Assembly (NCBI RefSeq): GCF_014672715.2
Contig: NZ_CP058566.2
Coordinates: 496,001 to 560,000 of the forward strand
Direction: 5' to 3'
Length of the DNA stretch: 64,000 nt
Source of the DNA: Dehalogenimonas etheniformans
Lineage (GTDB): Bacteria > Chloroflexota > Dehalococcoidia > Dehalococcoidales > Dehalococcoidaceae
The notes below the pieces were generated by a model. It did no database searches. It was not told the DNA's origin and was given only the letters and a program-made list of their open reading frames with translations. Each line of letters starts with the position of its first letter. The first letter of the stretch is position 1. The translations under genes were made by a program, and so were the position numbers. Positions 1 to 36,828 of the stretch are shown here, piece after piece.

Positions 1-1702
1 TCTCGGGTTTAACATATGAATTGGCGGCAGCGGTTGCGGCAAATGACGTGAAAACGTCCAACCGGGCGACGGCATCCGCCAGGGTGAGGAGGGCATCCGC
101 TGATTGGCCGATCTGGCCAAGAATTTGGCGATAAAGGGAACTCTCGATTTCAGCCAAGCGTTCTTTTGAACTCAGGATTTGCGCTTCGTATTCCTTGAGC
201 TCAGGGGTTACGTAACGCTCGGCGTTGGCCAGGGTCTGCTTGCGGATGAAACGGTCGGGGACCTGGGCTAAGTTTGCCTGAGACACTTCCAGATAGTAGC
301 CGAAAACCTGGTTATAGCCGACCTTCAAATTCTTGATGCCGGTTTTGACTCTTTCCTCAGCCTCCAGCCTGGCAATGAAGCTTTTGGCATTTGTGGCCAG
401 GTCCTTGATCTGATCGAGGTCGGCGGAAAAACCGGAGCGGATGACGCCGCCTTCACCGACGGCGGAGGAGGGTTCGGGTTCGACGGATTTTTCGATCAAA
501 GAGATGAGATCGGGGTGTTCTTTCAGTTCGGACCTTAATCCCTCGAGCGGTGCCCCGCGGAGCGCCCGCGCCAGTTCCGGGACGGCCTCCAGGCTGCGCT
601 TTAAGGCAATCAGTTCTCTCGGCAAAGCGGCAAAGTTGCGAATTCGGTTGGCCAACCTTTCGATGTCGGCGACGGGCTTTAACCACCGGGAGATTTCCTC
701 ACGGGCGGCGTTGTTGCTCAGGATAGCCTCGACGATCATGTGCCGTTCGATAATTTTCTTCGAGTCGAGCAGGGGCTGCCCAAGCCACCGGCGCAACAGA
801 CGGGCACCCATCGGTGATTTGGTGGAATCAAGGACCCCGAGCAAAGAACCGGCGATGGCACCGGTGGTGGCGTTTTTGAATATCTCAAGGTTGTTTACTG
901 TGTTCTCGTCAAGAGCCATGTATTCGCCGGTCGAATAGGCTGAAAGATGGCTTAAGCCTGCGATTGAATCTTTATTAGTCTCTTTTAGATATGCGACGAT
1001 AGCCTCGGCAGCGGAAACAGCCAGAGGCCAGTGTCCTACACCGTAACCTTCGAGGGTGGCGACGCCGAAATGCTCTTTAAGCAGATCGGCTGCCGTGGCA
1101 TTATCGAATCGATAAGAATCGAGTTCAGAAACCGGTACGGGCGATGAAGGCCGGTAGCCGCAACCTTTGGGCACGATAATCTCGGCGGGGGCGAGACGCT
1201 CGATTTCGCTTTCGAGTCGGGCGGCTGGGAACTGCGTGGCTGCAAATTGCCCCGTCGAGATGTCGATATAGGCCAGTCCAGACTGTTCCTCCCCTGGGAC
1301 TACGGCCACCAGGTAGTTGTTAGTTTTGATGTCGAGGAGCCCGGGCTCGATGACCGTGCCTGGGGTGACCAGGCGTACTACTTCGCGGTCCATGAGTCCC
1401 TTGGTATCGCCGGGGCGAGCGGTCTGCTCGCAGATGGCTACTTTATGGCCGCGGTTGATGAGGCGGGCGAGGTAGTTGTCGACCGCATGATATGGGATGC
1501 CCGCCATTGGTACTTTAACGCCTTTACCCATTTCACGAGCAGTGAGGACGATCTCGAGTTCACGTGCCGTGAGTTCGGCATCGGAGTCGAACGTCTCGTA
1601 GAAATCACCGAGGCGAAAGAAGACTATCGCTTCGGGATAGCGACGCTTGATGCGCAGGTACTGGGAGCGGAGGGGGGTAAGGCTTTCGGTCACAGCGGTC
1701 AT
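1..1702 (-). CDS. mutS: DNA mismatch repair protein MutS (C-terminal part outside window)
   Basis: Mismatch recognition ATPase of methyl-independent mismatch repair. Translating the minus strand from an ATG at 1702 gives an uninterrupted frame of about 567 codons to the window edge. Near the N-terminus is the mismatch-binding motif RLGDFYETFDSDA, with the Phe-X-Glu that stacks on the mispaired base, followed by the connector, core and lever regions typical of MutS. The Walker ATPase domain must lie left of base 1. The gene follows thiE by about 50 bases on the same strand and may be read from the thiamine operon. The fragment looks intact. Confidence 0.93.
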   Translation of the reverse strand, partial: MTAVTESLTPLRSQYLRIKRRYPEAIVFFRLGDFYETFDSDAELTARELEIVLTAREMGKGVKVPMAGIPYHAVDNYLARLINRGHKVAICEQTARPGDTKGLMDREVVRLVTPGTVIEPGLLDIKTNNYLVAVVPGEEQSGLAYIDISTGQFAATQFPAARLESEIERLAPAEIIVPKGCGYRPSSPVPVSELDSYRFDNATAADLLKEHFGVATLEGYGVGHWPLAVSAAEAIVAYLKETNKDSIAGLSHLSAYSTGEYMALDENTVNNLEIFKNATTGAIAGSLLGVLDSTKSPMGARLLRRWLGQPLLDSKKIIERHMIVEAILSNNAAREEISRWLKPVADIERLANRIRNFAALPRELIALKRSLEAVPELARALRGAPLEGLRSELKEHPDLISLIEKSVEPEPSSAVGEGGVIRSGFSADLDQIKDLATNAKSFIARLEAEERVKTGIKNLKVGYNQVFGYYLEVSQANLAQVPDRFIRKQTLANAERYVTPELKEYEAQILSSKERLAEIESSLYRQILGQIGQSADALLTLADAVARLDVFTSFAATAAANSYVKPE

Positions 1703-1751
1703 TTTACCCGATGTATTGGGAGGGTGTCACCCGGTAGTAGGTTGAGTATTT

Positions 1752-2387
1752 TTATACGGAAAAGGCACTCCGGAGGTCGAAAACGCGCTGAATGAGATCT
1801 TCAGCTCCAATCAAATCCGAGACAATGGCAAAGCATTTACATTCCCTTTCTGCCAGCGATCCGATATTCTCCCTGTTAATGCCGCCAATGGCGACGACCG
1901 GCAGGTGAGAACGTTTAAGGGCATATTCTAGCAAGGCAACTCCGCCAGGGGGCGCTGCATCTGGCTTGGTGGAGGTGGCGAACACGGGGCCAACGCCGAG
2001 GTAATCGACCTCGGGGATTGTCAAAGCTTTGTCGATTTCTTCAGGTGTAGCGACCGAGAGTCCAATGAGCATGTCTGCGCCGACGACCCGGCGGGCGGCG
2101 TCGGAGGGAAGATCGTCCTGCCCGAGGTGAAGGCCTTCAGCCCCGCAAGCTATAGCGAGTCCGGCGTCGTCGTTGACGATGAAACAAGCGTCGTATTCGC
2201 GGCACAGTCGGCTGATGGCGACACACTCCTCATACTTACGGCGCATCGGGAAGTCTTTCTCACGGTACTGGATGATCTTGATTCCAGCCTTCAACAAAAA
2301 ACGGGCGGTCTCCACATTGCCCCGGCTGCCCGAACAGGCATCAGACAGGATGGCGTAGATATCGGTCTGTGGAAGGTTTTTTTTCAT
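1752..2387 (-). CDS. thiE: Thiamine-phosphate synthase ThiE
   Basis: Joins HMP pyrophosphate and HET phosphate (the thiazole) to make thiamine monophosphate in the cytoplasm. The 211-residue TIM barrel shows the family signatures: IIQYREKDF (phosphate/pyrimidine contacts, near residue 38), FIVNDDAGLA (metal-binding Asp), GLHLGQDDLP and, near the C-terminus, VVAIGGINRENI. Length is normal for the family. It starts 14 bases after the AIR-synthase-like gene and so lies downstream of the TPP riboswitch, which agrees with the assignment. Confidence 0.95.
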   Translation of the reverse strand: MKKNLPQTDIYAILSDACSGSRGNVETARFLLKAGIKIIQYREKDFPMRRKYEECVAISRLCREYDACFIVNDDAGLAIACGAEGLHLGQDDLPSDAARRVVGADMLIGLSVATPEEIDKALTIPEVDYLGVGPVFATSTKPDAAPPGGVALLEYALKRSHLPVVAIGGINRENIGSLAERECKCFAIVSDLIGAEDLIQRVFDLRSAFSV

Positions 2388-2401
2388 CGGGATTGCCCGT
2401 G

Positions 2402-3463
2402 CTAGGCTCCCTGGACGGCTTTCGAAAAAGCCTTCCAGAAGGGGTCAACGATCGGATGGACAAGGCGAGTCTCTCGGCCTCGGTCGACGAGTACCATCCC
2501 GGCTTCGGGCGGGGTCAATTCCCCGATGATCGACGACGGGATTCCTTTAGCACTGAGCGCCTGGATGATGTCGCAAGCCTTATGCGGCCGGCAGGTGATG
2601 ATCAAGGTGCCTTCGGAAATGGCGGCGTAAGGATCGCTTATACCGAACAGGCGGCAAATTTCGGGCACGCCGTCGGCGACGACAATGTCGTCTTTAATGA
2701 TCCTGGCGCCCAAGCCGGCGGCCTGGGCTACCTCGAATAAGCCGCCCCAGATGCCGCACTCCGTGGCGTCATGCATAGAACTAACCCCGTTGTCGCGGAC
2801 ACCTACCGAGACCGCGGCCAGGGCGTCATCGACCACCGACATCCGGTAAAAAAGCCCCTCGGCGCGGCGGGCAAAATCATCTCCGAATTCCTTTGCGATC
2901 AGACCCGGGAACACCGCGGCGAAGATACCGCAGGCTTCAATGGCGGGACCTTTGGTGACAATGATCTTGTCGCCCTCCTTGGCGAAACGCGGGGATACGT
3001 ATTCAGAAAGTTCACCGGTGCCAATCATGGTAGCGCCCCCGACCATGGGATAGTTGCAGCCTTCATAACGGGCGGTGTGGCCGGTGATAATATTAATACC
3101 CATCTTTTCGCATTCCCGGTGCATGACCTCCCACATTGAAGCCAACTGTTCCTTGGTCATGTCCATCGGTAGATTGAGGTCGATCGACAGGAATTTGGGC
3201 TTGAGACCTGAAGTGACCGAATCCGAGGCGATGATGTGAATGGCGAACCATGCGGCGCGCTCGAAGCCATATTGAGGCACGATGAAAATAGGATCGGTAG
3301 TGAATGATACCGCCTTGCCGCCGATCTCTGCGATGCCGACGTCGACACCATGCTGAGGACCGACCAGAACCTTATCACTTTTGGCGCCAAGACGGGGGAA
3401 AATTATCTCCCGGAAAATTTCCGGAGAGATTTTGCCAATTTCAGGCATTTCAGCAGTGGCCAT
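2402..3463 (-). CDS. AIR synthase / HypE-like protein under TPP riboswitch control
   Basis: A 353-residue protein of the PurM/HypE/ThiL (AIR synthase) superfamily. These enzymes bind ATP and phosphorylate or activate a substrate. It shows a VSFTTDPIF strand near residue 52, an ITGHTARYEG loop, a MHDATECGIWGGL glycine-rich helix near residue 230 (compare MRDPTRGGL in HypE), and a C-terminal domain ending without the PRIC tail of HypE. Position as first gene behind a TPP riboswitch and directly before thiE suggests a thiamine role. A thiamine-monophosphate kinase substituting for canonical ThiL is one possibility. It lacks the usual ThiL GDDAA motif, so exact function is unknown. An AAGGAG ribosome site precedes the ATG. 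Confidence 0.75.
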   Translation of the reverse strand: MATAEMPEIGKISPEIFREIIFPRLGAKSDKVLVGPQHGVDVGIAEIGGKAVSFTTDPIFIVPQYGFERAAWFAIHIIASDSVTSGLKPKFLSIDLNLPMDMTKEQLASMWEVMHRECEKMGINIITGHTARYEGCNYPMVGGATMIGTGELSEYVSPRFAKEGDKIIVTKGPAIEACGIFAAVFPGLIAKEFGDDFARRAEGLFYRMSVVDDALAAVSVGVRDNGVSSMHDATECGIWGGLFEVAQAAGLGARIIKDDIVVADGVPEICRLFGISDPYAAISEGTLIITCRPHKACDIIQALSAKGIPSSIIGELTPPEAGMVLVDRGRETRLVHPIVDPFWKAFSKAVQGA

Positions 3464-25736: not shown

Positions 25737-27260
25737 TCAGGCGCTTCCGCTACTCGATCCTCCGGATATCGGTGTTTTCAATAATGTCTCGGTGATCTTC
25801 CGTAGATGATAACCCGTTATGGAGAGCGTCACTGCCAGCGGGAACACTTTGGGCCTCCTGAACAGGCTGAACGCCAAAAGCCTCCAATAATAAGTACGAC
25901 CTTTTTCGATAATCCCGAGCTTCCATAATGAACGGAAGAACGCCGCTATGTGGTGAAATTCGAAACGAGGAAGGCGTCCCCGAATTCGCGGGTTGTAGTT
26001 GCGCAGGAACAATTTGGTGCGCTCATAATAGTGTTTGGGTGAGTAAATGGTTTCAAGCAGGTGCCGGTAACCCTCTATGAGGGTTTTACGTGGCATCTTT
26101 GGTTCGAAATTGAGAGTGGAATCGGTGTTGTCCCCGCCAAAATCCTCGATCATCCGGTTTTCCTTCTCGAGGCGTTGGAATAACCGGGTGCCCCGGGGCG
26201 CGTTTAATAAACCCACCATAGCAGTGACTATGCCGCTATTCTGGATAAAAGCTATCTGCGATTTGAAAATCGAGGGTGGATCAGAGTCGAAGCCGACAAT
26301 GAAGCCACCCTGGACCTGGAGGCCGGCAGCCTGGATTCTCTTGACGGCGGCTACCATGTCACGGTTTTCGTTCTGACCTTTGTCACATTCCGCCAGGCTC
26401 TCGGCGTTGGGGGTTTCGACACCGACGAAGACCTGGAAAAAGCCAGCATCCGCCATGGCTTTCATGAGGTCGTCGTCATCGGCAAGGTTTATTGATACCT
26501 CGGTCGACAGGCTGAAAGGGAATTTGTTCTTCTCCTGCCAGCTGGTGATGGCGGGAAGCACCTCAGCCTTCAAGTGCCGTTTGTTGCCGATGAGATTGTC
26601 ATCAACGAAGAATACACCGGAACGCCAGCCGTAATCGTACAGAGATTGTAATTCGCGTACAACCTGATCTGCGGTTTTGACCCTCGGTTTGCGGCCGAAG
26701 AGGACGACGATGTCGCAGAATTCGCAATTGAACGGGCAGCCCCGTGAGTACTGCAGCGACATCGAGGAATAAGCAGCTTTATCAAGGAGTTTCCACATTG
26801 GCAGGGGCGTAGCGGTGATATCTGGTTTATCCTCGGATCGATAAACCGGCTGTGCCTCGCCCGCCGCCCAATCGGCAAGAAACAGCGGCAGGGTAATTTC
26901 AGCCTCATCCAATACGAAGTGATCTACACCCGAGATTCTATCGTACTCGGTAGTGAAATAAGGACCCCCGGCGACGATGGTTTTGCCGGCCGCCCTGGCT
27001 TTTTCGATTAATTCTTCCGCCGATTTTCGCTGGATCGCCATCGCGGAAATATAGACTGCGTCAGCCCAATCCAAATCTCTTTGATTGAAACTGGTGACAT
27101 TGAGGTCAAGCAGTCTGATTTCCCATTCATTCGGCAGCATCGCTGCAATGGTCAACAAACCAAGAGGAGGGAAAGACGCCCTTTTACTGACGAATTTAAG
27201 GGCGTGACGGAAACTCCAGAAGGTTTCTGGATAACGGGGATAAACCATGAGAATTTTCAT
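25737..27260 (-). CDS. B12-binding-domain radical SAM protein (HpnR-like, DUF4070)
   Basis: A 507-residue protein with an N-terminal B12-binding-like domain (MKILMVYPRYPETFWSF, PPLGLLTIAAMLP), a radical SAM core with the cluster motif RGCPFNCEFCDIV (Cys-x3-Cys-x2-Cys), and a C-terminal DUF4070-like region starting near residue 380. The closest characterised type appears to be the hopanoid C-2 methylase HpnR group, but substrate is unknown. It follows the hydrogenase operon by 63 bases on the same strand. Confidence 0.82.
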   Translation of the reverse strand: MKILMVYPRYPETFWSFRHALKFVSKRASFPPLGLLTIAAMLPNEWEIRLLDLNVTSFNQRDLDWADAVYISAMAIQRKSAEELIEKARAAGKTIVAGGPYFTTEYDRISGVDHFVLDEAEITLPLFLADWAAGEAQPVYRSEDKPDITATPLPMWKLLDKAAYSSMSLQYSRGCPFNCEFCDIVVLFGRKPRVKTADQVVRELQSLYDYGWRSGVFFVDDNLIGNKRHLKAEVLPAITSWQEKNKFPFSLSTEVSINLADDDDLMKAMADAGFFQVFVGVETPNAESLAECDKGQNENRDMVAAVKRIQAAGLQVQGGFIVGFDSDPPSIFKSQIAFIQNSGIVTAMVGLLNAPRGTRLFQRLEKENRMIEDFGGDNTDSTLNFEPKMPRKTLIEGYRHLLETIYSPKHYYERTKLFLRNYNPRIRGRLPRFEFHHIAAFFRSLWKLGIIEKGRTYYWRLLAFSLFRRPKVFPLAVTLSITGYHLRKITETLLKTPISGGSSSGSA

Positions 27261-27323: not shown

Positions 27324-27701
27324 TCAACCGTGATGCATTTCCGTTTCTAGCTCGCCGGTCCCCATGGGGATTTCCATTCGCACCTTGATCGCTTCCCCTT
27401 CGACAACCACAGGAAAAATACAGGCATCCTTCGTGCGCAATTTGAAGGGTCCGAATTTAAATCCCGAAAGGCATTTACCACTAGAGATGTAAAACTTAGC
27501 GCCATGGATCGGGCAGGAAATAACCTTTCCCTCAAGTTTTCCCGAGGCCAATTCGCCACCGAGGTGGCTGCAAGTCTCGTTTATGGCGTAGAAGTTGCCG
27601 CTAGAGTTGATAACCAACAATTTCTTGTCGCATACCAAAAAGGACTTCATCTGCCCGTCAAGAATATCTCCGGTCTTTGCCACATCAATGTATTTTTCCA
27701 T
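27324..27701 (-). CDS. Rieske [2Fe-2S] domain protein, last gene of hydrogenase operon
   Basis: A 125-residue soluble Rieske ferredoxin-like protein. Cluster ligands are in CSHLGGEL and CPIHGAKFYISSGKCLSG (Cys-x-His / Cys-x2-His). No signal peptide is present. It lies 26 bases after the two-cluster ferredoxin gene and so ends the hydrogenase operon. It might link the complex to another redox partner. Confidence 0.85.
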   Translation of the reverse strand: MEKYIDVAKTGDILDGQMKSFLVCDKKLLVINSSGNFYAINETCSHLGGELASGKLEGKVISCPIHGAKFYISSGKCLSGFKFGPFKLRTKDACIFPVVVEGEAIKVRMEIPMGTGELETEMHHG

Positions 27702-27727: not shown

Positions 27728-28087
27728 TTATATATTATGCGTGGAAGGTCCTCTGTGGTAGATCACCGTTACTTCCTGTTTTTTGTGAATACGTGGGGCG
27801 GCATAGACCAAGTCGTGACTGATGGCCTGCTGCAGGCAGACATCGACACAGTTTGCGCAGTAGACACATTTCAACGGATCGTAGCGCACCTGGCGAGATG
27901 GCACATCAATAGTTATGGCGCCCGAAGGGCACAATCGAGCGCAATCGTTGCATAGATCGCACTTATTGCTATCCCAACGGACTTTGCCACGAAATCCTGC
28001 AACGGGTTCTTTTACAACAACTGGATAACACACCGTTGCCGGTTTGCTGAACAGGTTTTTGATTACGGTCGGCAGCATCCAGGGCAT
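27728..28087 (-). CDS. NuoI/EchF-like ferredoxin subunit (2x[4Fe-4S])
   Basis: A 119-residue polyferredoxin subunit with the two cluster motifs CDLCNDCARLCPSG and CVYCANCVDVC, after a NuoI-like N-terminus (MPWMLPTVIKNLFSKPATV). It corresponds to EchF/NuoI, which passes electrons to the small subunit. Its AGGAG site overlaps the stop of the large-subunit gene. Confidence 0.88.
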   Translation of the reverse strand: MPWMLPTVIKNLFSKPATVCYPVVVKEPVAGFRGKVRWDSNKCDLCNDCARLCPSGAITIDVPSRQVRYDPLKCVYCANCVDVCLQQAISHDLVYAAPRIHKKQEVTVIYHRGPSTHNI

Positions 28088-28096
28088 TCGTTTCTC

Positions 28097-29176
28097 CTAG
28101 CGTTCCGTGCAAGAAATGCAGGGGTCGATGGAAAGAGTAATAATGGGCACATCGGCAAGCTCGCAGCCGGGCAGCATCGCGAGGAGGGTAGGAATATTGG
28201 CGAAGGTTGGAGTACGGATTTTGCAACGCTCGAGGTTATTGGATCCGTTGCCTTTGACATAATAAAATAGTTCACCGCGGGGTTGCTCAACTCGGGTGAT
28301 AGTCTCCCCCTCCGGGAATGTGTCGACGCGAACCAACAATTCTCCGGACGGCGCCATCTCCAGGGACCTTGTGACCAGTTCGATCGATTGATAGAGTTCT
28401 CTTACCCTGACTAGCGCACGAGCATAACTGTCGCCGGCGGTTTCCACGACCGGCTCGAAACCGATGTCTTTGAACGCGGCATAACCCGTCGATCTTATGT
28501 CGGAGGAGACGCCGCTGGCTCGCAATGTTGGGCCGACGGCCCCCAGCAAGCGCGCTTGTTCGGTGGTTAGTATACCCTTGCCTATGGCTCGTTTTTTGAG
28601 CGTCGGGTCGTTCAACAGGGTCGGTTTGACCGTTTTATCCATAAAATTCTTGAAATCCGCTAGTTTTGTCTTGATCGTCTTCACTGTTTCGGGATCGATG
28701 TCCCGGCGCACTCCGCCTACCAGCACTGCGGAATGGATGACCCGGTTGCCTGTAGTCATCTCCAGGATGTCCATGATGATTTCCCTGGCACGCCAGATCT
28801 GCATGAACAGGCTCTCAAAACCCATTGCATCAGCCAACAAACCAAGCCACAGAGCATGACTGTGAAGGCGCGATAATTCAGCCCAGGCGGTTCGCAGATA
28901 CCGGGCACGCTCTGGAACGGTTACCCCGCAGAGTTTTTCGACCGCTTCGCAGTAGCACAAAGCATGCTGAATACTGCATATACCGCAAATGCGTTCCACA
29001 AGAAAGACATTGTTGCGGAAAGGGTTCAACTCGCAAGCTTTTTCGATTCCCCTATGGACGTAGCCGATAACCGGGGTCGCTCCGGTAACGATCTCATCTT
29101 CACATTCCAACTTAAGCTGCACCGGTTCAGGAAAGACCGGATGCTGGGGGCCGAAGGGTATTACGGTGCGCGCCAT
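28097..29176 (-). CDS. Group 4 [NiFe] hydrogenase large subunit (EchE/NuoD-like)
   Basis: Catalytic subunit of an energy-converting hydrogenase. The Ni-binding Cys pairs are intact: ERICGICSIQHALCYCEA (N-terminal, near residue 60) and DPCISCTER at the very C-terminus. The 359-residue body is like EchE/CooH. The protein ends three residues after the last Cys, so there is no C-terminal extension for a maturation protease to cut. It lies directly after the NuoC-GltD fusion gene. Confidence 0.92.
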   Translation of the reverse strand: MARTVIPFGPQHPVFPEPVQLKLECEDEIVTGATPVIGYVHRGIEKACELNPFRNNVFLVERICGICSIQHALCYCEAVEKLCGVTVPERARYLRTAWAELSRLHSHALWLGLLADAMGFESLFMQIWRAREIIMDILEMTTGNRVIHSAVLVGGVRRDIDPETVKTIKTKLADFKNFMDKTVKPTLLNDPTLKKRAIGKGILTTEQARLLGAVGPTLRASGVSSDIRSTGYAAFKDIGFEPVVETAGDSYARALVRVRELYQSIELVTRSLEMAPSGELLVRVDTFPEGETITRVEQPRGELFYYVKGNGSNNLERCKIRTPTFANIPTLLAMLPGCELADVPIITLSIDPCISCTER

Positions 29177-30559
29177 CTAAACCTCCACGTCACAGCGCCA
29201 GCAACGGCGGCCCTCTTTTATCGCCATTTCAGGAGTTAAGCCGAGCTCTTCCTCGCCGACCTCGTCAACCTTTCCGAATGGAACGTTTGGCTGCTGTTGT
29301 CTTTTCCGCGGTTCCCGCCGGTCAAAAATGGTATCTCTTGAGAGCGCTTCAGCAGGTAGTGGAGGGGTCTCCGGCCAGTCGATAGTTCCGCCAAGGAATT
29401 TTTGTATGCTCTCGGCAGCCCGTCTCCCTGATGCAATAGCTTCAATTACCGAAGTCGGTCCCATGGTTATGTCTCCGGCAGCAAATATCCGGTCTTTATT
29501 GGTTTTTAGTGTCTCTTTGTCGACACTCACGATATTATGGCCGTCGCGTTGTTCCGCTTCAAGGCCAAGACGCTTCAACAGATCCACTTTTCCACTTACC
29601 GCGGCGATAACGCCGGATTTGCGAATTCCCTGATGGGCTCCGAATGCAATCAGAACCGCATCGAAGCCTTCGTCCAGGAGATTTTCCAGGTTATCTACAC
29701 GGTGGTTGGTTTCGATTTTGACACCAAATCCGGCAATCGCCCCGATTTCCGCATCCAGGATAGATCGCGGCAGTTCGGTTTCGGGGATGCCGTAGCGAAG
29801 ATGACCGCCAGTTTCAGGCAGCGCTTCAAAAACTGTTACGGCGTTGCCTAGTCTGGCCAGAAAATAAGCCGCGGTGAGCCCGGCAGGTCCGGAACCAACA
29901 ATTGCAATTCGGTGACCGGTGGATGGCAGAGGCGAGGGTTCCACGTAATGGCCGCGCTCATAGGCCAATCGTTTGAGCAGTTTGATCGAGATACCTTCAT
30001 TTTGTTTATCCTGCCGGCAGGCGGCTTCGCAGGAAGCCAGGCAGACGCGGCCAAGGATACCTGGAAAAGGCACTGACTGATGGATGACAGCCAGCGCGGC
30101 ATCGAATTCGCCTTCACCGCATAATCGGACGTATCGGGGGATGTCGATACCGGCAGGGCAGGATTGATGACATGGGGCGTTGAGGCGGATTGCTTTTCTG
30201 GGTTGGTAATCAGGCGGCTTCACTAGGTAGGTTTTAGGGCTGTCTTTGGTCACCATCATACCGCCGAGATAGTCGAGAGATTGGTTCTCAAATTTAATCC
30301 CGAAGAGTTCGGAAATCTCGTTTTCGATCAGGCTGGCGCACAAGTAGACCGAAGATAGACTGGGTACGGTGTCATTTTTCGCGATTTTAAGCCGCCAGTG
30401 CTCCATGTGCTGGCTGTTGTCAAGATTGAAATGATAGATGATCTCAAATCCGCCGTCAGCATCAATGGCCGTGGCAGTACAGAACATGCCGCCGGCGGAA
30501 CGCATTACCGACGCGTTGGGAACCAATCTTTCGGCGGTCACGACACGTTCGTTATTCAT
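29177..30559 (-). CDS. NuoC/EchD-like domain fused to a truncated GltD/NfnB-type flavoprotein
   Basis: A 460-residue fusion. Residues 1 to about 115 match the NuoC/EchD 30-kDa subunit (YLCASLIENEISELFGIKFE). After a linker comes a GltD-type [4Fe-4S] module (APCHQSCPAGIDIP, near 128-141; RVCLASCEAACR, 171-182). An FAD Rossmann motif follows (VGSGPAGLTAAYFLARLG, 221-238), then FAAGDITMGPTSVIEAIASG (359-378), and it ends RRCWRCD. The NAD(P)H-binding insert with GGGN-x-A-x-D, expected after residue 315, is missing: the chain runs from FGAHQGIRKSG almost directly to the final FAD segment. It may carry electrons without binding NAD(P)H. It overlaps the upstream gene by 8 bases. Confidence 0.88.
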   Translation of the reverse strand: MNNERVVTAERLVPNASVMRSAGGMFCTATAIDADGGFEIIYHFNLDNSQHMEHWRLKIAKNDTVPSLSSVYLCASLIENEISELFGIKFENQSLDYLGGMMVTKDSPKTYLVKPPDYQPRKAIRLNAPCHQSCPAGIDIPRYVRLCGEGEFDAALAVIHQSVPFPGILGRVCLASCEAACRQDKQNEGISIKLLKRLAYERGHYVEPSPLPSTGHRIAIVGSGPAGLTAAYFLARLGNAVTVFEALPETGGHLRYGIPETELPRSILDAEIGAIAGFGVKIETNHRVDNLENLLDEGFDAVLIAFGAHQGIRKSGVIAAVSGKVDLLKRLGLEAEQRDGHNIVSVDKETLKTNKDRIFAAGDITMGPTSVIEAIASGRRAAESIQKFLGGTIDWPETPPLPAEALSRDTIFDRREPRKRQQQPNVPFGKVDEVGEEELGLTPEMAIKEGRRCWRCDVEV

Positions 30560-31157
30560 GCGCGGGAGCCTCGGTGTTGAAATCCAGTGCTTGGGCTAAA
30601 AGGAAATTGCCCTCGATCACGTTGGTCGGGCAGATCCTGAAACATTCCCGGCACTTTGAGCATTCCTTTGCAGCTATCTCTGGCATGAAGGTCACTTCAC
30701 GGGAAGCGCCGCGCCCGATAAAGCTGACCGCACCCAGCTTTTTTACCTCGTTGCAGTAGCGCACGCACATGCCGCACAAAATGCAGAAGGTGCCGTCTTT
30801 CTTGAACCTGTTGACGTTAGCGCCGTATTCCCTGGCCAGGTCCTTGACGACTTTGGCGCCGGGCGCTTGTGTCAACAATAATTCGACCAAGACCTTGCGA
30901 ATGCGCCGGATGCGTTCACTTTCTGTGAAGACCACAAGTTTGTCTTCTGCAGGGTAAACACAGGAAGCTACAATCCGTTTTCTGGCGCCCTGGCGTATCT
31001 CCACACTGCACAATCGGCAGCCGCCGTAGGGTTCAAGGTCTTTATGATGACAAAGAGTCGGAATGTGGATGCAAGCGCTCTGAGCCGCCTCGAGGATGGT
31101 CATTCCGGGGTGGGCAATTATTTCCTGCCCGTCGATGGTAAGTTTTAAGTCAGGCAT
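30552..31157 (-). CDS. NuoG/HoxU-like Fe-S subunit
   Basis: A 201-residue protein equal to the N-terminal part of NuoG or to HoxU: a [2Fe-2S] ferredoxin domain (ACIHIPTLCHH, GGCRLCSVEI), a His-type segment region, and [4Fe-4S] motifs CILCGMCVRYCNEV and CSKCRECFRICPTNVIEG. It has no molybdopterin-like domain. It is one base from the NuoF gene and probably links the NADH module to the hydrogenase. Confidence 0.9.
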   Translation of the reverse strand: MPDLKLTIDGQEIIAHPGMTILEAAQSACIHIPTLCHHKDLEPYGGCRLCSVEIRQGARKRIVASCVYPAEDKLVVFTESERIRRIRKVLVELLLTQAPGAKVVKDLAREYGANVNRFKKDGTFCILCGMCVRYCNEVKKLGAVSFIGRGASREVTFMPEIAAKECSKCRECFRICPTNVIEGNFLLAQALDFNTEAPAHE

Positions 31158-33083
31158 CTATTTTACCTTATGCCTTACTTTGATCGGCTCTTTGGGGGTG
31201 CCTTCCGGTGCATTTCGACCGGGTACTTTCAGAATAGCGCCAAACTTGGGCGGGCAGATGTCTACGCAGGCGCCACACTTGATGCATTTCGATTGCTCTA
31301 TGACGTGGACCATCTGCTTGGAACCGACTATCGCCGAAGAGGCGCAAGTGCGGATACAAAGCGAACAGGCTTTGCATTTATCCGCATCGATGTAGAAGGT
31401 GACAAGATCCGGGCAAATCCCGGCCGGGCATTTTTTGTCGCGGATATGGGTTTCGTATTCCGGGCGGAAATAGCGGAGAGTTGTCAGAAGCGGGTTGGCC
31501 GCGGTCTGCCCCAGGGCGCAGAGACAGGCATCCTTCAGAGTCTCTGCCAACTCCTCGAGTGTATCGAGTTCCTCCATTTCCGCTTCGCCGCGGGTAATCC
31601 TGGTGACGATGTCGATCATCTGTTTTAAGCCTTCGCGGCACGGAAGGCATTTGCCGCAAGACTCGTCGGCCAGGAAAGTGAGGAAGTATTTGGCCAGGTC
31701 GACCATGCAGGTTTCTTCATCCAGGACGATCATGCCACCGGAGCCGACCATCGACCCCAGCTTATCCAATTCATCGAAATCTACCGGCGTATCCATGTAT
31801 TCTACGGGAATGCAGCCGCCAGACGGACCGCCCGTCTGCACCGCCTTCAGTTTCTTGCCGTCGCGGACGCCGCCCCCGATTTTAAAAACGATATCCTTGA
31901 GGGTGGTGCCCATCGGCACTTCCACCAGGCCGGTATTATTCACCTTGCCTACCAGGGCGAAGATCTTGGTTCCGGACGATCCGCTGGTGCCGATGCTTTT
32001 GAACCACTCGGCGCCGCGGTTGATGATCTGAGGCACGTTAGCCCAAGTTTCAACGTTATTCAAATTGCTGGGTTTGTTCCATAGTCCTCTGACAGCAGTT
32101 CGGATGTATTTCGGTCTCGGCTCGCCGACCCGTCCCTCGATGGCGGTCATCAGCGCGGATGATTCCCCCGATACAAAAGCGCCGGCGCCCTGATGCACTT
32201 TGACGGTGAAATCGAAACCGCTGCCGAGGATGTTCTTTCCTAGCAGCCCGTATTCTTCGGCCTGGGCGATAGCCCTGAACAGGTTGGTTACCGCCAGTGG
32301 GTATTCGGCCCGCACGTAAACGTAACCTTCGTGGCTGCCAATGGCATAGGCGCCGATCATCAAGCCTTCCAGGACGCAGTGCGGGTTGCCCTCCATGACC
32401 GATCTGTCCATGAACGCGCCGGGATCGCCCTCATCGCAGTTGACAATGACATACTTCGGTTCGCCGGGGGCATTCTTGGTGGTGAACCATTTTTTACCGG
32501 CCGGGAAACCCGCGCCGCCCCGTCCTCGAAGCTGAGCTTGTTCCACCTCTGAGAGTACTTGATCCGGGGTCATACCTGATACAACCTTGGAGAGCGCCTT
32601 ATATCCGCCTACGGCGAGGTAGTCCTCAATGTTTTTGGGGTCTATACGCTGATTGTCGCCGAGCACCAGCCGGTACTGGTAACGGTAGAACGGAATATCA
32701 GATTGTTTGGCGATCTTTTCGCCGGTAGCGGGATCGGTGAAGAGAAGTCGCTCGACGATATTGCCTGACTTGACCGCGGCGACGACCTCGGGGACATCAG
32801 TTGGCTGAACCTGTAAATAACACACATCGGAGGGGTGAATAACCACCACTGTTCCCTTTTCGCAGAAACCGTGACAGCCGGTGTGGCGGATGTCGATGCT
32901 GTCGCTTAACCCTTGAGCGGCTAGTTCGGCGATGAACAATTCGCCTAGTTTACCGGCTCCAAGAGCCAGGCAGCCCGTACCGCCGCAGATAGAGATGCAT
33001 GGTTTATCATGCTTCCGTTGTTCAATTATTCTTTGCCTCAGGCTCGCCAGAGCCCCGGGTGAGTCCAGCCTGTTCATCGTCAT
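31158..33083 (-). CDS. NuoF/HydB-like NADH-binding flavoprotein subunit
   Basis: A 641-residue subunit of the type found in NAD-linked and bifurcating hydrogenases. Order: N-terminal thioredoxin-like [2Fe-2S] domain (CISICGGTGC), FMN/NADH core (RGRGGAGFPAGKKW and CDEGDPGAFMDRSVMEGNPH), SLBB region, [4Fe-4S] motif CGKCLPCREG, and a C-terminal two-cluster ferredoxin (CKACSLCIRTC and CIKCGACVDIC). It forms the NADH site with NuoE. It starts immediately after nuoE. Confidence 0.94.
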   Translation of the reverse strand: MTMNRLDSPGALASLRQRIIEQRKHDKPCISICGGTGCLALGAGKLGELFIAELAAQGLSDSIDIRHTGCHGFCEKGTVVVIHPSDVCYLQVQPTDVPEVVAAVKSGNIVERLLFTDPATGEKIAKQSDIPFYRYQYRLVLGDNQRIDPKNIEDYLAVGGYKALSKVVSGMTPDQVLSEVEQAQLRGRGGAGFPAGKKWFTTKNAPGEPKYVIVNCDEGDPGAFMDRSVMEGNPHCVLEGLMIGAYAIGSHEGYVYVRAEYPLAVTNLFRAIAQAEEYGLLGKNILGSGFDFTVKVHQGAGAFVSGESSALMTAIEGRVGEPRPKYIRTAVRGLWNKPSNLNNVETWANVPQIINRGAEWFKSIGTSGSSGTKIFALVGKVNNTGLVEVPMGTTLKDIVFKIGGGVRDGKKLKAVQTGGPSGGCIPVEYMDTPVDFDELDKLGSMVGSGGMIVLDEETCMVDLAKYFLTFLADESCGKCLPCREGLKQMIDIVTRITRGEAEMEELDTLEELAETLKDACLCALGQTAANPLLTTLRYFRPEYETHIRDKKCPAGICPDLVTFYIDADKCKACSLCIRTCASSAIVGSKQMVHVIEQSKCIKCGACVDICPPKFGAILKVPGRNAPEGTPKEPIKVRHKVK

Positions 33084-33542
33084 TTACTTGTACTGCTCAA
33101 GGACTTTCTCGGTTTCTGCCGGGGGCAGCTTGCCGTGGTACTCGCCGTCGACTACCATGACCGGTCCCAGCGCGCAGCATCCCAGGCAGTTCACCGTTTC
33201 AAGAGAAAAACGCATATCGTCGGAGGTTTCCCCTGGCCCGACGCCTATTTTATCGGCGGCTTTTTCAAGTATTTTGGGCGCCCCGTGCACGTGGCAGGCG
33301 GTACCCATGCACACCATAACGTGATGGCGGCCGTGGGGTTTGAGACTAAATACTTTATAGAACGTAGCCACATGATAAACGCGGTTAAGCGGAACTCCCA
33401 ATGCTTCGGTGACCCGCAGCAAGGCTTTTTTTGGCAGCCAGCCGTATTCCTTCTGGATTGCCAGCAATGATTGGATGAGCATGTCGGGCTGGCCTTTGAA
33501 AGGCTCTAATAGTTTATCAAGTTTACTGAGATCAGTTTCCAA
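33084..33542 (-). CDS. NuoE-like [2Fe-2S] subunit
   Basis: A 152-residue thioredoxin-fold subunit with the [2Fe-2S] ligands in CMGTACHVHG and CLGCCALGPVMVVDG. It opens with a helical segment (LLEPFKGQPDMLIQSLLAIQ) ahead of PKKALLRVTEALG. It pairs with NuoF. It overlaps the end of the NuoB-like gene by 11 bases, a sign of coupled translation. Confidence 0.93.
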   Translation of the reverse strand: METDLSKLDKLLEPFKGQPDMLIQSLLAIQKEYGWLPKKALLRVTEALGVPLNRVYHVATFYKVFSLKPHGRHHVMVCMGTACHVHGAPKILEKAADKIGVGPGETSDDMRFSLETVNCLGCCALGPVMVVDGEYHGKLPPAETEKVLEQYK

Positions 33543-34005
33543 CGCTTTCCACCTTCTCGGGTTGCTTGACGCCTTTTTCGGACAACACTTTTAGTCCCAG
33601 GACGACACCGTCGATGATAGCCTCCGGCCGGGCGGCGCATCCCGGTACATAGACGTCGACAGGGATCACCTGGTCGACTCCGCCGATGACATTTGGGCAG
33701 TTATGGAACACCCCGCCGCTGCAGCCGCAGGTACCGATAACGATCACTACCTTGGGTTCCGGCATCTGGTCGTAGAGGTTGCGCAGCACTCTGGAGTTCC
33801 GCTTGTTGGCGGGACCGGTAACCAGCAGCACATCGGCATGTTTCGGGTTGCCCATATTAACGATTCCGAAGCGTTCGACGTCGTAAAGCGGCGTCAGGCA
33901 GGCCAGTATTTCGATATCGCAGCCGTTGCAGCTGCCGCAATCAAAATGCAGCAGCCACGGCGATTTTAAACGGGAAGTGGCAACGGCTTTGGTCAGTGTG
34001 TTCAT
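33532..34005 (-). CDS. [NiFe] hydrogenase small subunit (EchC/NuoB-like)
   Basis: Subunit carrying the cluster next to the Ni-Fe site: FDCGSCNGCDIEI, IGTCGCSGG and VYVPGCAARPEAI provide the Cys ligands of the proximal [4Fe-4S]. About 157 residues, the size of EchC. The start at 34005 (MNTLTKAV) is chosen because ATGA overlaps the NuoH-like stop; the frame opens at 34062. Confidence 0.92.
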   Translation of the reverse strand: MNTLTKAVATSRLKSPWLLHFDCGSCNGCDIEILACLTPLYDVERFGIVNMGNPKHADVLLVTGPANKRNSRVLRNLYDQMPEPKVVIVIGTCGCSGGVFHNCPNVIGGVDQVIPVDVYVPGCAARPEAIIDGVVLGLKVLSEKGVKQPEKVESVGN

Positions 34006-34844
34006 CCGAGGGCCTTCAGTGCAAAAATATTGATGGCTCCGAGACCCAGCCCAATCATCCATGTCAGGCGCAGCATGTCGCGCCAGGTCAATCTGGCGGT
34101 GATGTTATCGACCACCACGACGACAAACCAGGCCGCCAGAGCCAGCAGGATGCCCCACCCTAGCCAGAACAGCGACATCACTGCCAGAACCAGCACCAGT
34201 TCAAAAGTATGGGCGATTTCGATTATCGCCAGTTCCCGGCCGCTGTATTCGGTCATCACCCCTTTTACGATCTCTTGGTGCCCGTGTTCGGACGCGGCGA
34301 TATCGAACGGCGATTTGCGCATGATGATGATCAGGGCAACGACGAAAGCAAGGAAGACAGGCCACAACGAGGGTAGCAGGGCTGTGCCGATTCCTGAGAT
34401 CATGAAAGTGCCGGTTTTAATGTAGATAGCGATAGCGCCGAGCAGCAGTATCGGCTCGTAAGCCAGCATCTGCAGCAGTTCGCGGTTAGCACCGGCGTGG
34501 CTGTAAGGGGATTTGACACTGAACGCACCGACAATCAGGAAAATATCGGCTACCCCGAGGAGCAGAATCAGGTATAAAAGGTCCTGCCTCAATGCAAACA
34601 TGATCGTTGCCGCAAGGATGAAACCCAGGTAACCCCACACCGCCATGACCTGGAAGCCGCTGGAGGGTGCCGGTTTTTTACCTAATAATTTGAGAATGTC
34701 GTATATCGGCTGCAGCAGCGGCGGACCGACGCGTCCTTGCATCCTCGCAGAAAGCCGCCGGTCGAGGCCGCGCAAAAGGCTGCCGGCGATGGCAGGAATC
34801 AGTATAGCTGCGATTACAGCCAGGACACTCTGCCAAAATGTCAT
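34002..34844 (-). CDS. EchB/NuoH-like membrane subunit
   Basis: A 280-residue integral membrane protein with about eight helices. It shows the NuoH/HyfC-type segments ARMQGRVGPPLLQPIYDILK and SPFDIAASEHGHQEIVKG (conserved Glu). It anchors the peripheral arm and takes part in ion coupling. It overlaps both neighbours by 4 bases. Confidence 0.92.
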   Translation of the reverse strand: MTFWQSVLAVIAAILIPAIAGSLLRGLDRRLSARMQGRVGPPLLQPIYDILKLLGKKPAPSSGFQVMAVWGYLGFILAATIMFALRQDLLYLILLLGVADIFLIVGAFSVKSPYSHAGANRELLQMLAYEPILLLGAIAIYIKTGTFMISGIGTALLPSLWPVFLAFVVALIIIMRKSPFDIAASEHGHQEIVKGVMTEYSGRELAIIEIAHTFELVLVLAVMSLFWLGWGILLALAAWFVVVVVDNITARLTWRDMLRLTWMIGLGLGAINIFALKALG

Positions 34845-36775
34845 AGTACCAGTACCACCGCCAGGCTCAAGATCAAAATTCCGAGTCCCAGTTTTTGAAG
34901 ATTACCCTCGAATCCTTCGGAAAAGACATTTAGGAAGTAGCTGCTGCCAAGCTTAAGTTCGGTTTCGCTGTCTGCCACTGCGTTAAAGGAAGTTGTTGAG
35001 GACGCACAGTTTTCGCCGCACATGTAGGCTGATATGGTATCGGTTTTCACCTTCCTGGTTCTCATTAAGATCAGGCCGATGAGGGCCAGGAGTAAGAAAA
35101 TCGACCAGATGGCAAATACTCCAATACCGGTTTGGAAATTAGAGCTCGACGTTGTGAAGCTTGAAGGGAATGCCGTAGAAAGGATGGGAGAAATGAAACC
35201 GCTGAATAATCTGCTGAACAATAGGCTCAGGGTTAAAGCCGCAATAAGGAGTATTACTACAGGCAAATGATATAGAGCAGAGAAATGCTCACGTGTCGGG
35301 ACGGTTTGACCCGGCGCTTGGGTGAACATCCTGCCGAGCCACTTGGCCCAGAACACGATGGTGAAACTGGAGCCGGTAACCAATAGAAGAACCGTAATCG
35401 GGAGGAGCAATCCCGATGTTGCCCCGGCAGATTCGAGCGCCGCCCATTTGCCGATAACCATGCCGAACGGGGCAAAGACCATGGTCACGATCGCGGCGAT
35501 GACGATAAAGCTGATCATCGGGCGGCGATAGACCAGGCCTTGCATATCTTCGATGTTCCGGCTGCCGATACCGTGGTCGATGATGCCGACTCCAAGGAAA
35601 AGCAGCGCTTTTGATACCGCATGGAACACGGTTATCGCCAGAGCTGCGGTTATGGCTATCGGGGTATTGATGCCGGCACACATGATGATAAGACCAAGAT
35701 TGGATATCGTGGAAAGTGCCAGGACCCGCTTGGATTCGCTCTGGCTGAGAGCCATAGCCGCCGCCGCGGTGAAAGTAAAACCGCCGAGGATGACCGCAGC
35801 CGACGACAAGGCTGTACCTTCGAAACCCGGCGCCATCCTTAGGATCAGGAAAACACCCGCTTTGACCATGGTGCTGGAATGCAGTAACGCTGAAACGGGT
35901 ACTGGAGCCACCATAGCACCCAATAGCCAGGTGTGGAAAGGCACCTGGGCGGCTTTGACGAAGGAAGCGAGGAACAGGCAAGCCATAGGGAACATCAGCA
36001 CGGTTGCGCCATTATTGATCAGGCTTTGAAGGGAAACACTTTCCAACTGACCATTGGCGTAGATGATCCCGACGATCAGTCCCAGTCCGCCGATAAGGTT
36101 CATCCACAGGGCGCGGAAGGCGTTCTTTACTGCCTCCGGTGTCTCCTCGTGGCGGATGAGGGCATAGCAGCACAGGGTGGTGATTTCCCAGAAGAAGTAC
36201 AACCACCGCATGTTATCGGCAAAAACGATGCCGTTCATCGCTCCCAGCAGAATGACCATGAAGAAGAAAAAGGTATTCTGCCGGGTGCGGCTCAGGTTCT
36301 TATGATTTTCGTGGTCGGCCATATATCGGAGTGAGTAAACGCAGATAAGACCGCCGATAATCGAAATAATCAGGCTCATCAGGACCGATAAGTGGTCAAT
36401 GAAAAATACCGGCGCCGCCGAATCGGCCGTTTGGGACTGCAGGTACAACGCAAGGAGTATTTGCGCCGATACCAAACCGATCACCATCAGATTCCGCGAC
36501 TGCCTGCCGTTTTTCCGGTAATCGTTGATGCCTGCGTACAGGAAATAGCCCAGAAGAATGAAATCGAATACGGTAACTAACGTTTCCCAGGAAGAGGCAG
36601 CATTGAGGTTCAGCGGGAAATCGTCGGAAATAGCGAGGCCGATTGAAGCAACTGCGACAACGGCAGAAACGCAAAAAACCAGAATAGCCAGGGCGGAACG
36701 GCTACGCCCGAACGCAAGGCAGAGGGAGCCAATAATAAAAGGGGCCAGGATTAAAAGCGCAAGAGAAAATGGCAC
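34841..36775 (-). CDS. EchA/NuoL-like ion-pumping membrane subunit
   Basis: A large antiporter-like subunit of about 644 residues and fourteen or more helices. The proton-transfer region is visible: MRWLYFFWEITTLCCYALI (conserved Glu), KAAQVPFHTWLLGAMVAPVP (Lys and His) and HAVSKALLFLGVGIIDH. First gene of the operon. The frame opens at a TTG at 36790, but a GTG at 36775 has AGGAG just before it and is preferred. It would export H+ or Na+ in the complex. Confidence 0.92.
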   Translation of the reverse strand: MPFSLALLILAPFIIGSLCLAFGRSRSALAILVFCVSAVVAVASIGLAISDDFPLNLNAASSWETLVTVFDFILLGYFLYAGINDYRKNGRQSRNLMVIGLVSAQILLALYLQSQTADSAAPVFFIDHLSVLMSLIISIIGGLICVYSLRYMADHENHKNLSRTRQNTFFFFMVILLGAMNGIVFADNMRWLYFFWEITTLCCYALIRHEETPEAVKNAFRALWMNLIGGLGLIVGIIYANGQLESVSLQSLINNGATVLMFPMACLFLASFVKAAQVPFHTWLLGAMVAPVPVSALLHSSTMVKAGVFLILRMAPGFEGTALSSAAVILGGFTFTAAAAMALSQSESKRVLALSTISNLGLIIMCAGINTPIAITAALAITVFHAVSKALLFLGVGIIDHGIGSRNIEDMQGLVYRRPMISFIVIAAIVTMVFAPFGMVIGKWAALESAGATSGLLLPITVLLLVTGSSFTIVFWAKWLGRMFTQAPGQTVPTREHFSALYHLPVVILLIAALTLSLLFSRLFSGFISPILSTAFPSSFTTSSSNFQTGIGVFAIWSIFLLLALIGLILMRTRKVKTDTISAYMCGENCASSTTSFNAVADSETELKLGSSYFLNVFSEGFEGNLQKLGLGILILSLAVVLVL

Positions 36776-36828
36776 TCCTGCTCCTAACAAATGCCCAAAT
36801 GGCGACTCTTGTACCTGAAATGTAAGAG

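Follow-up and report, generated by a model that had tools for sequence, protein, structure and literature searches.

Dehalogenimonas etheniformans encodes, in the middle of a [NiFe] hydrogenase operon, a 460-residue fusion of a NuoC domain with a GltD-type iron-sulfur flavoprotein module that lacks the NAD(P)H-binding domain. We propose, with a probability of roughly two in three, that this protein once served as an input module for NADPH and was turned into an adaptor that carries electrons inside the complex when a Bfu module assumed the nucleotide chemistry. The architecture of the protein, the exactness of the loss, its conservation, the purifying selection acting on it and the co-occurrence of the loss with a gene cassette were established computationally. 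A preliminary description of the window (the whole 64,000-nucleotide stretch of DNA analyzed, bases 496,001-560,000 of the single contig) had suggested a module devoid of its own nucleotide site, and an internal carrier is supported as its most likely role.

Results

Architecture of the NuoC-GltD fusion

Pfam identified Complex1_30kDa (residues 7-93), Fer4_20 (127-201), and split FAD-domain matches from residue 216. GltD-type matches from NCBIfam and the PDB ran from the 120s to the 310s, skipped approximately 130-150 target residues, and resumed at the C-terminal FAD segment, in agreement with the initial observation that both FAD segments are kept. Pfam, these two-block matches and a gap of 132 alignment columns together bear out a 460-residue NuoC-GltD fusion without an NAD(P)H domain (Table 1). 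Its N-terminal Fe-S domain and divided FAD domain assign the protein to the GltD/NfnB type, although it has no NAD(P)H domain; it is predicted to bind FAD.

Table 1. Features of the fusion gene and its operon, in window coordinates and in order along the minus strand.
Feature	Position	Strand	Basis
NuoL/MrpA/HyfB-like proton channel subunit	34841..36790	-	Pfam, NCBIfam
NuoH/HycD-like membrane subunit	34002..34844	-	Pfam
NuoB-like small subunit (CGSCNGC)	33532..34062	-	Pfam, motif
NuoE / BfuC-like subunit	33084..33542	-	Pfam, NCBIfam
NuoF / BfuB-like subunit, 641 aa: [2Fe-2S]-type N terminus, FMN domain, C-terminal dicluster	31158..33083	-	Domains, Cys positions
HoxU / BfuA-like subunit, 201 aa, 8-base overlap with next gene	30552..31157	-	Pfam, NCBIfam
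NuoC-GltD fusion without NAD(P)H domain, 460 aa	29177..30559	-	Pfam, NCBIfam, PDB matches, alignment, model
NuoC (Complex1_30kDa) domain, residues 1-100	30260..30559	-	Pfam 7-93; pLDDT mostly 85-96, final block 72
N-terminal Fe-S domain, residues 125-213 (C130, C134, C173, C177, C181)	29921..30187	-	Fer4_20
FAD domain, first half, residues 214-308 (GSGPAGL, E245, GG, GIP)	29636..29920	-	Alignments, model
E262, at the flavin-N5 arginine position (StnC R239, NfnB R201)	29774..29776	-	Alignments
Splice loop, residues 309-322	29594..29635	-	Alignments; pLDDT <50
FAD domain, second half, residues 315-395 (AxSG, FAAGD, GPTSVIEA)	29375..29617	-	Alignments, model
C-terminal pair C453/C456	29192..29203	-	Alignment, Cys positions
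Group 4 [NiFe] hydrogenase large subunit (RICGIC, DPCISC Ni-ligand motifs)	28097..29176	-	Pfam, motifs
NuoI-like 2x[4Fe-4S] ferredoxin subunit	27728..28087	-	Pfam, Cys positions

An AlphaFold model of the protein (mean pLDDT 86, pTM 0.71) has a FAD domain mostly above 90 and two stretches, residues 102-116 and 309-322, that lie in large part below 50. The NuoC domain, at first placed at residues 1-115, is present, but its modeled fold covers only residues 1 to approximately 100, and residues 102-116 form a low-confidence linker. Using VIA-align, residues 123-458 of the model superimposed on residues 97-568 of 9bov (Z 38.6, 2.4 Å, 307 aligned), and the model matched StnC (8oh5) to a similar extent (Z 37.4, 2.4 Å, 307 aligned). 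The aligned range comprises 336 residues of the model versus approximately 470 in the 9bov chain, which fits a missing domain. Foldseek returned the same top entries. The structural comparison originally proposed, with NfnB, GltD and DPD, recovered the shared Fe-S domain and FAD fold (5jca, 2vdc and 1h7w; Z 26-30); unlike these proteins, the fusion lacks the NADPH domain and uses two C-terminal cysteines for cluster 1. The modeled fold is that of an NfnB/StnC module minus its NAD(P)H domain.

Eight cysteines occur in the GltD part (C130, C134, C147, C173, C177, C181, C453 and C456). C147 is variable in a seven-row alignment, in which the other seven are invariant, as are the FAD-pocket residues, across two bacterial families. 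C130, C134, C173, C177 and C181 are all invariant in a 51-row alignment of 10 fusions and 41 GltD homologues selected from the 78 distinct ones described below (51 of 59 rows kept; short NuoC-only rows were left out). The Fe-S cysteines are kept, as had been stated, but not as one N-terminal set: two of the usual four cluster-1 cysteines (C130 and C134) are N-terminal, and the other pair is C453/C456, which probably completes the cluster held by C130/C134, as in StnC-type proteins.

Exactness of the loss

In the seven-row alignment, the missing NAD(P)H block falls between K314 and S315 (window 29617/29618) and is 132 columns long; the edges of the deletion are identical in all five short fusions identified below. 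The 132 extra columns are also present in long fusions from G422, G441 and G439 in a wider alignment. Past the junction, the next strand has the sequence AAxSG in short forms (5/5) and AAIGQ in the long forms.

Of the two findings that would overturn the description, a relocated NAD(P)H domain was not found in the window, and a frameshift hiding one was excluded. A tblastn search of the window with the insert returned only the FAD Rossmann segment of the fusion itself (E 0.014) and noise, and a six-frame motif scan gave only two matches (20618 and 50783), in plus-strand frames with stop codons nearby. Frameshift, misassembly and decay were ruled out by the single 2.07-Mb contig, the identical layout in three sister-genus genomes and low dN/dS, and a chance lone deletion was ruled out by the occurrence of the form in five genomes from two families. 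Among the three sister-genus genomes, pairwise dN/dS was 0.04-0.08 for the whole fusion gene and 0.00-0.12 by region (FAD halves, 0.035-0.082; splice region, 0.00-0.04). Within the sister genus, strong purifying selection thus acts on the domain-less fusion.

Short fusions co-occur with NuoE, NuoF and HoxU

Read along the minus strand, the operon encodes NuoL, NuoH, NuoB, NuoE, NuoF, HoxU, the NuoC-GltD fusion, the hydrogenase large subunit and a 2x[4Fe-4S] protein. Its Ni-ligand motifs, [4Fe-4S] small subunit, and NuoH and NuoL membrane subunits place the predicted enzyme among the group 4 [NiFe] hydrogenases; RICGIC with DPCxxC, and likewise CGSCNGC, occur in all 10 fusion operons found. NuoF and NuoE are assigned to the Bfu family on the basis of the FMN domain and of additional cluster cysteines at both the N and the C terminus, the cluster content being predicted. 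In the short form, no nucleotide site other than the FMN site of NuoF is predicted for the complex. Directly after the operon lies a gene for a Rieske-type ferredoxin (27324-27701, minus strand), homologues of which were not found close to the operon at either L047, the sister-genus locus, or the f81 loci searched, and downstream of it a gene for a B12-binding radical SAM protein with DUF4070 (25737-27260, minus strand). Genes resembling hypB and hypA, named by eye from their translations, lie immediately downstream of the hydrogenase operon in G153 (L081 4290-5314, minus strand) and G415 (L082 5737-6761, minus strand).

Ten NuoC-GltD fusions were found, of which five are short (G000, the window genome; G008, G009 and G010, of the sister genus; and G153, of family f81) and five are long (G415, G342, G422, G441 and G439). 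The long fusions comprise approximately 592-610 residues and have a complete domain with GGGNAAID in every case. Genes for NuoE, NuoF and HoxU separate nuoB from the fusion gene in every short-form operon (5/5) and in none of the long-form operons; in the latter, nuoB abuts or overlaps the fusion gene directly (5/5), and no nuoE, nuoF or hoxU homologue was found at the locus (5/5). BfuB homologues are encoded elsewhere in four of the five long-form genomes (E ≤ 1e-60), with none in G342. The absence of NuoE-NuoF-HoxU from long forms holds for the operon, not for the genome, and a partnership in trans is possible.

The domain-less fusion, which the preliminary description advised seeking in other genomes, was found with the same splice in five genomes in total: besides the window genome, all three of the sister genus (51-52% identity, syntenic operon) and G153. 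It is absent from the seven other genomes of its own genus (G001-G007), which are also without the Mbh-Bfu hydrogenase large subunit (best matches approximately 34-36%). That Mbh-Bfu is missing from 7/7 sampled congeners and present in 3/3 sister-genus genomes suggests loss or transfer in the own genus. Reductive dehalogenase matches number 53 in the window genome and 20-37 in the others (11 family genomes checked), and the host bacteria appear to breathe chlorinated compounds. Together with the genome sizes, these counts suggest that the sister genus is Dehalococcoides. At G008:C1:677094-678974 (plus strand), a second BfuB-like gene, open in G009 and G010, contains five stop codons and is a possible pseudogene.

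Searches yielded seven fusions among 393 genomes of the class, six (three of them new) among 52 genomes of family f81, and five, all previously found, among 400 genomes of the phylum. Two further phyla, centred on a Desulfobacula genome and an uncultured Eubacteriales record, gave 0/395 and 0/398 at E ≤ 1e-85. In the class, phylum and two-further-phyla searches the best four or five candidates per genome were scored, and distant fusions could escape. None of eight loci from a related-locus search carried a domain-less fusion.

Replacement of the flavin-N5 arginine

By alignment, StnC R239 is the arginine of 'IPQYRL'. According to PMC10482914, its NfnB counterpart, R201, contacts N5 of FAD and is considered a requirement for bifurcation by NfnB, and R239 is needed for full activity of StnC, the R239A mutation nearly abolishing activity. 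This position is arginine in all five long fusions and in none of the five short ones, which have glutamate (window protein and G153), alanine (G008 and G010) or threonine (G009).

We collected 78 distinct GltD homologues, two of which were not parsed by pattern (both have arginine by eye). Among the 76 parsed sequences, arginine occupies the position in 64/65 with the domain and in 1/9 without it; the two others, both with arginine, have no measurable spacing. Five of the nine domain-less proteins form one clade, and the nine are not independent events. The GltD tree shows four losses of the domain, two of which fall on well-supported branches, and a phylogenetic test of domain loss against arginine comprises two independent contrasts on supported branches, for which significance is not claimed. 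L086 is the sole domain-less protein that keeps the arginine. The exception among domain-bearing proteins, L006, has glutamine there and a motif degraded to GGGSLAFR; this GltD-like protein with ferredoxin domains (1243-3117, minus strand; approximately C1:2027858-2029732 of the window genome) is a possible half-way case.

Domain-less GltD modules are not unique to the fusion: others occur at L084 (G226), L085 (G364), L086 (G094) and L087 (G069). The window protein stands apart from these by its fusion to NuoC within Mbh-Bfu and by the existence of a matched long form. L084 (823-12691, plus strand) has two NuoE-NuoF sets and a 600-residue HoxU/domain-less GltD fusion, no hydrogenase, and a downstream pair resembling NfnA and NfnB. 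In a model of the L084 fusion (mean pLDDT 82.7, pTM 0.83), 391 residues align to StnC at 9.4 Å; both parts match separately, and the placement of HoxU is not fixed. The structure-match lists were filled with complex I and Nfn chains, and no other fold was prominent. Two associations were named by eye: at L086 (9346-10623), the domain-less GltD precedes an aldehyde:ferredoxin oxidoreductase-like gene, and at L087 (9208-11463) it is apparently fused to an OYE-like domain. The NCBIfam family NF045663 (dicluster-binding oxidoreductase near selenoproteins) matches the window protein in one stretch, residues 128-457 to profile positions 18-310, and seems from this alignment to be without the NAD(P)H domain at the corresponding point; however, the window protein scores 158 bits against a cut-off of 530, and NF045663 is a 759-position family without NuoC.

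Direction of change

The 10 fusions form one branch of a GltD tree computed without the insert and arginine columns (SH-aLRT 99). Because the homologues that surround them carry the NAD(P)H domain, the direction of change is, judged from sequence, most simply a domain loss, although the tree evidence rests on few independent changes (two on well-supported branches). In the NuoC-GltD tree, the short forms fall on one side of a branch (97/96). A tree of the operon core (NuoL, NuoH, NuoB, large subunit and ferredoxin) conflicts with this topology and groups G153 with the long-form family (100/100), and an AU test on the fusion itself does not reject a tree in which G153 joins the long forms (p 0.076). 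Because the placement of G153 is incongruent and the AU test leaves that grouping standing, horizontal exchange of a cassette consisting of NuoE, NuoF, HoxU and the short fusion, two separate conversions, or regain of the domain from a short ancestor is possible.

Discussion

In our proposal, the window protein serves as adaptor subunit in a [NiFe] hydrogenase that is bound to the membrane and presumably translocates protons. In its ancestor, a long NuoC-GltD fusion of the kind that five sister operons encode today, NADPH would have delivered electrons to the GltD FAD and thence, via two [4Fe-4S] clusters, to the NuoI and NuoB clusters and the Ni-Fe site. The GltD module of the long operons may feed the hydrogenase from NADPH in the manner of the StnC module, and the YRR motif that follows GGGNAAID in long forms is one that we take to fit NADPH. 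In the short lineage, the NuoE-NuoF-HoxU (Bfu) cassette would have come to separate nuoB from the fusion gene, the GltD module would have had its NAD(P)H domain cut out exactly, and the arginine serving the flavin would have been lost. The two remaining Fe-S clusters and FAD would then couple the Bfu module, through HoxU, to the hydrogenase core, with FAD retained to carry or store electrons within the complex, no longer in contact with a pyridine nucleotide. Physiologically, the complex may convert H2 to NADH and reduced ferredoxin or operate in reverse.

A more specific arrangement, possible though doubtful, is that HoxU or the NuoI-like ferredoxin docks on the side of the FAD where the NAD(P)H domain used to sit, making FAD an obligatory hub between two Fe-S chains. 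If so, the swap of one domain for a three-gene cassette would have turned an NADPH-linked hydrogenase into an NADH-plus-ferredoxin-linked bifurcating one.

We doubt that the FAD domain is instead merely a structural scaffold, with FAD absent or redox-silent and electrons passing through Fe-S clusters only, from HoxU to NuoI to NuoB. Both the nucleotide domain and the flavin arginine are lost, as such a relic would allow, and to our knowledge neither complex I nor other group 4 hydrogenases need a flavin of this kind; however, the FAD-pocket residues and cluster cysteines are invariant in seven rows from two families, and dN/dS in the FAD halves is 0.03-0.08.

The preliminary description also entertained a bifurcating flavin. 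Bifurcation of the Nfn type at the retained FAD is unlikely, because the N5 arginine is replaced in all five short fusions and the adjacent NuoE-NuoF are of the Bfu type, for which bifurcation has been proposed at FMN. It is very improbable that the FAD is a second bifurcating flavin in series with the Bfu core, taking single electrons from clusters and splitting them between two paths as in HdrA. The thioredoxin reductase-like FAD of HdrA can bifurcate when fed by clusters, according to PMC12054007 and PMC9304861, a similar role has been proposed for the HdrA of Bam-Bfu, and our model matches HdrA (5odh; Z 19.2, 168 aligned, 2.8 Å), with which it shares a FAD of this type predicted to exchange electrons with Fe-S clusters. 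However, the arginine on the N5 side is replaced by E, A or T, a bifurcating core of the Bfu type is already encoded, and the sequences are not close; the inserted ferredoxin domain of HdrA gives way to a 14-residue loop, and its C-terminal ferredoxin domains are absent as well (no ferredoxin Pfam match). Docking on the FAD in trans by some other protein that brings an NAD(P)H site is scarcely credible. The genome does encode three further GltD-like proteins, but these are complete ORFs elsewhere, no NAD(P)H domain of this kind was found in the operon or window, and the flavin arginine is lost.

The preferred reading, an internal carrier, bears on a complex already foreseen in print, so the layout was not as new as first thought. 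Schut et al. (2022) predicted an Mbh-Bfu complex in Dehalococcoides, with BfuABC genes inside a group 4 hydrogenase cluster, as in the window, and with subunit G holding a flavin site 'of unknown function' (PMC9304861). The window protein is very probably this Mbh-BfuG, because it is, besides NuoF, the only subunit of the operon with a flavin domain. The part of PMC9304861 available contains no mention of a lost NAD(P)H domain, of NuoC (0 occurrences) or of domain-bearing sisters without BfuABC, and in the literature we found no description of the missing nucleotide domain, the NuoC fusion, sisters bearing the NADPH domain or a module exchange. Judged against these sources, the Mbh-Bfu prediction is known, and the matched domain-bearing sister fusions, the exact domain loss and its association with the cassette are new.

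The closest structural relatives, StnC (8oh5; PMC10482914) and subunit A of NfnABC (9bov, 9n5u), likewise combine a GltD module containing Fe-S clusters and FAD with a HoxU/NuoG-like region and a HydBC/BfuBC core (Z 37-39). Both have the NAD(P)H domain, and StnC binds NADPH and has R239, whereas the window protein lacks domain and arginine. In Stn and Nfn-Bfu the GltD domain with its NADPH site is part of the BfuA chain; in the window the GltD domain is without that site and fused to NuoC, and HoxU is a separate gene. The StnC module feeds a NuoG-like chain and a bifurcating HydBC-type core, electrons passing from NADPH and FAD through clusters C7, C6, C5, C4 and C3 to the FMN of that core, and the FAD of StnC does not bifurcate (PMC10482914).

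The relatives of the window protein suggest that its NADPH part was lost because another module for electron input had joined the gene cluster. This provides a specific origin for a flavin so far left unexplained, in a complex kept in 3/3 sampled sister-genus genomes, and points to an apparent exchange of a whole module in an energy-converting hydrogenase. The long and short forms constitute natural before-and-after pairs, and the role of an internal, nucleotide-free flavin is therefore directly testable by comparing them.
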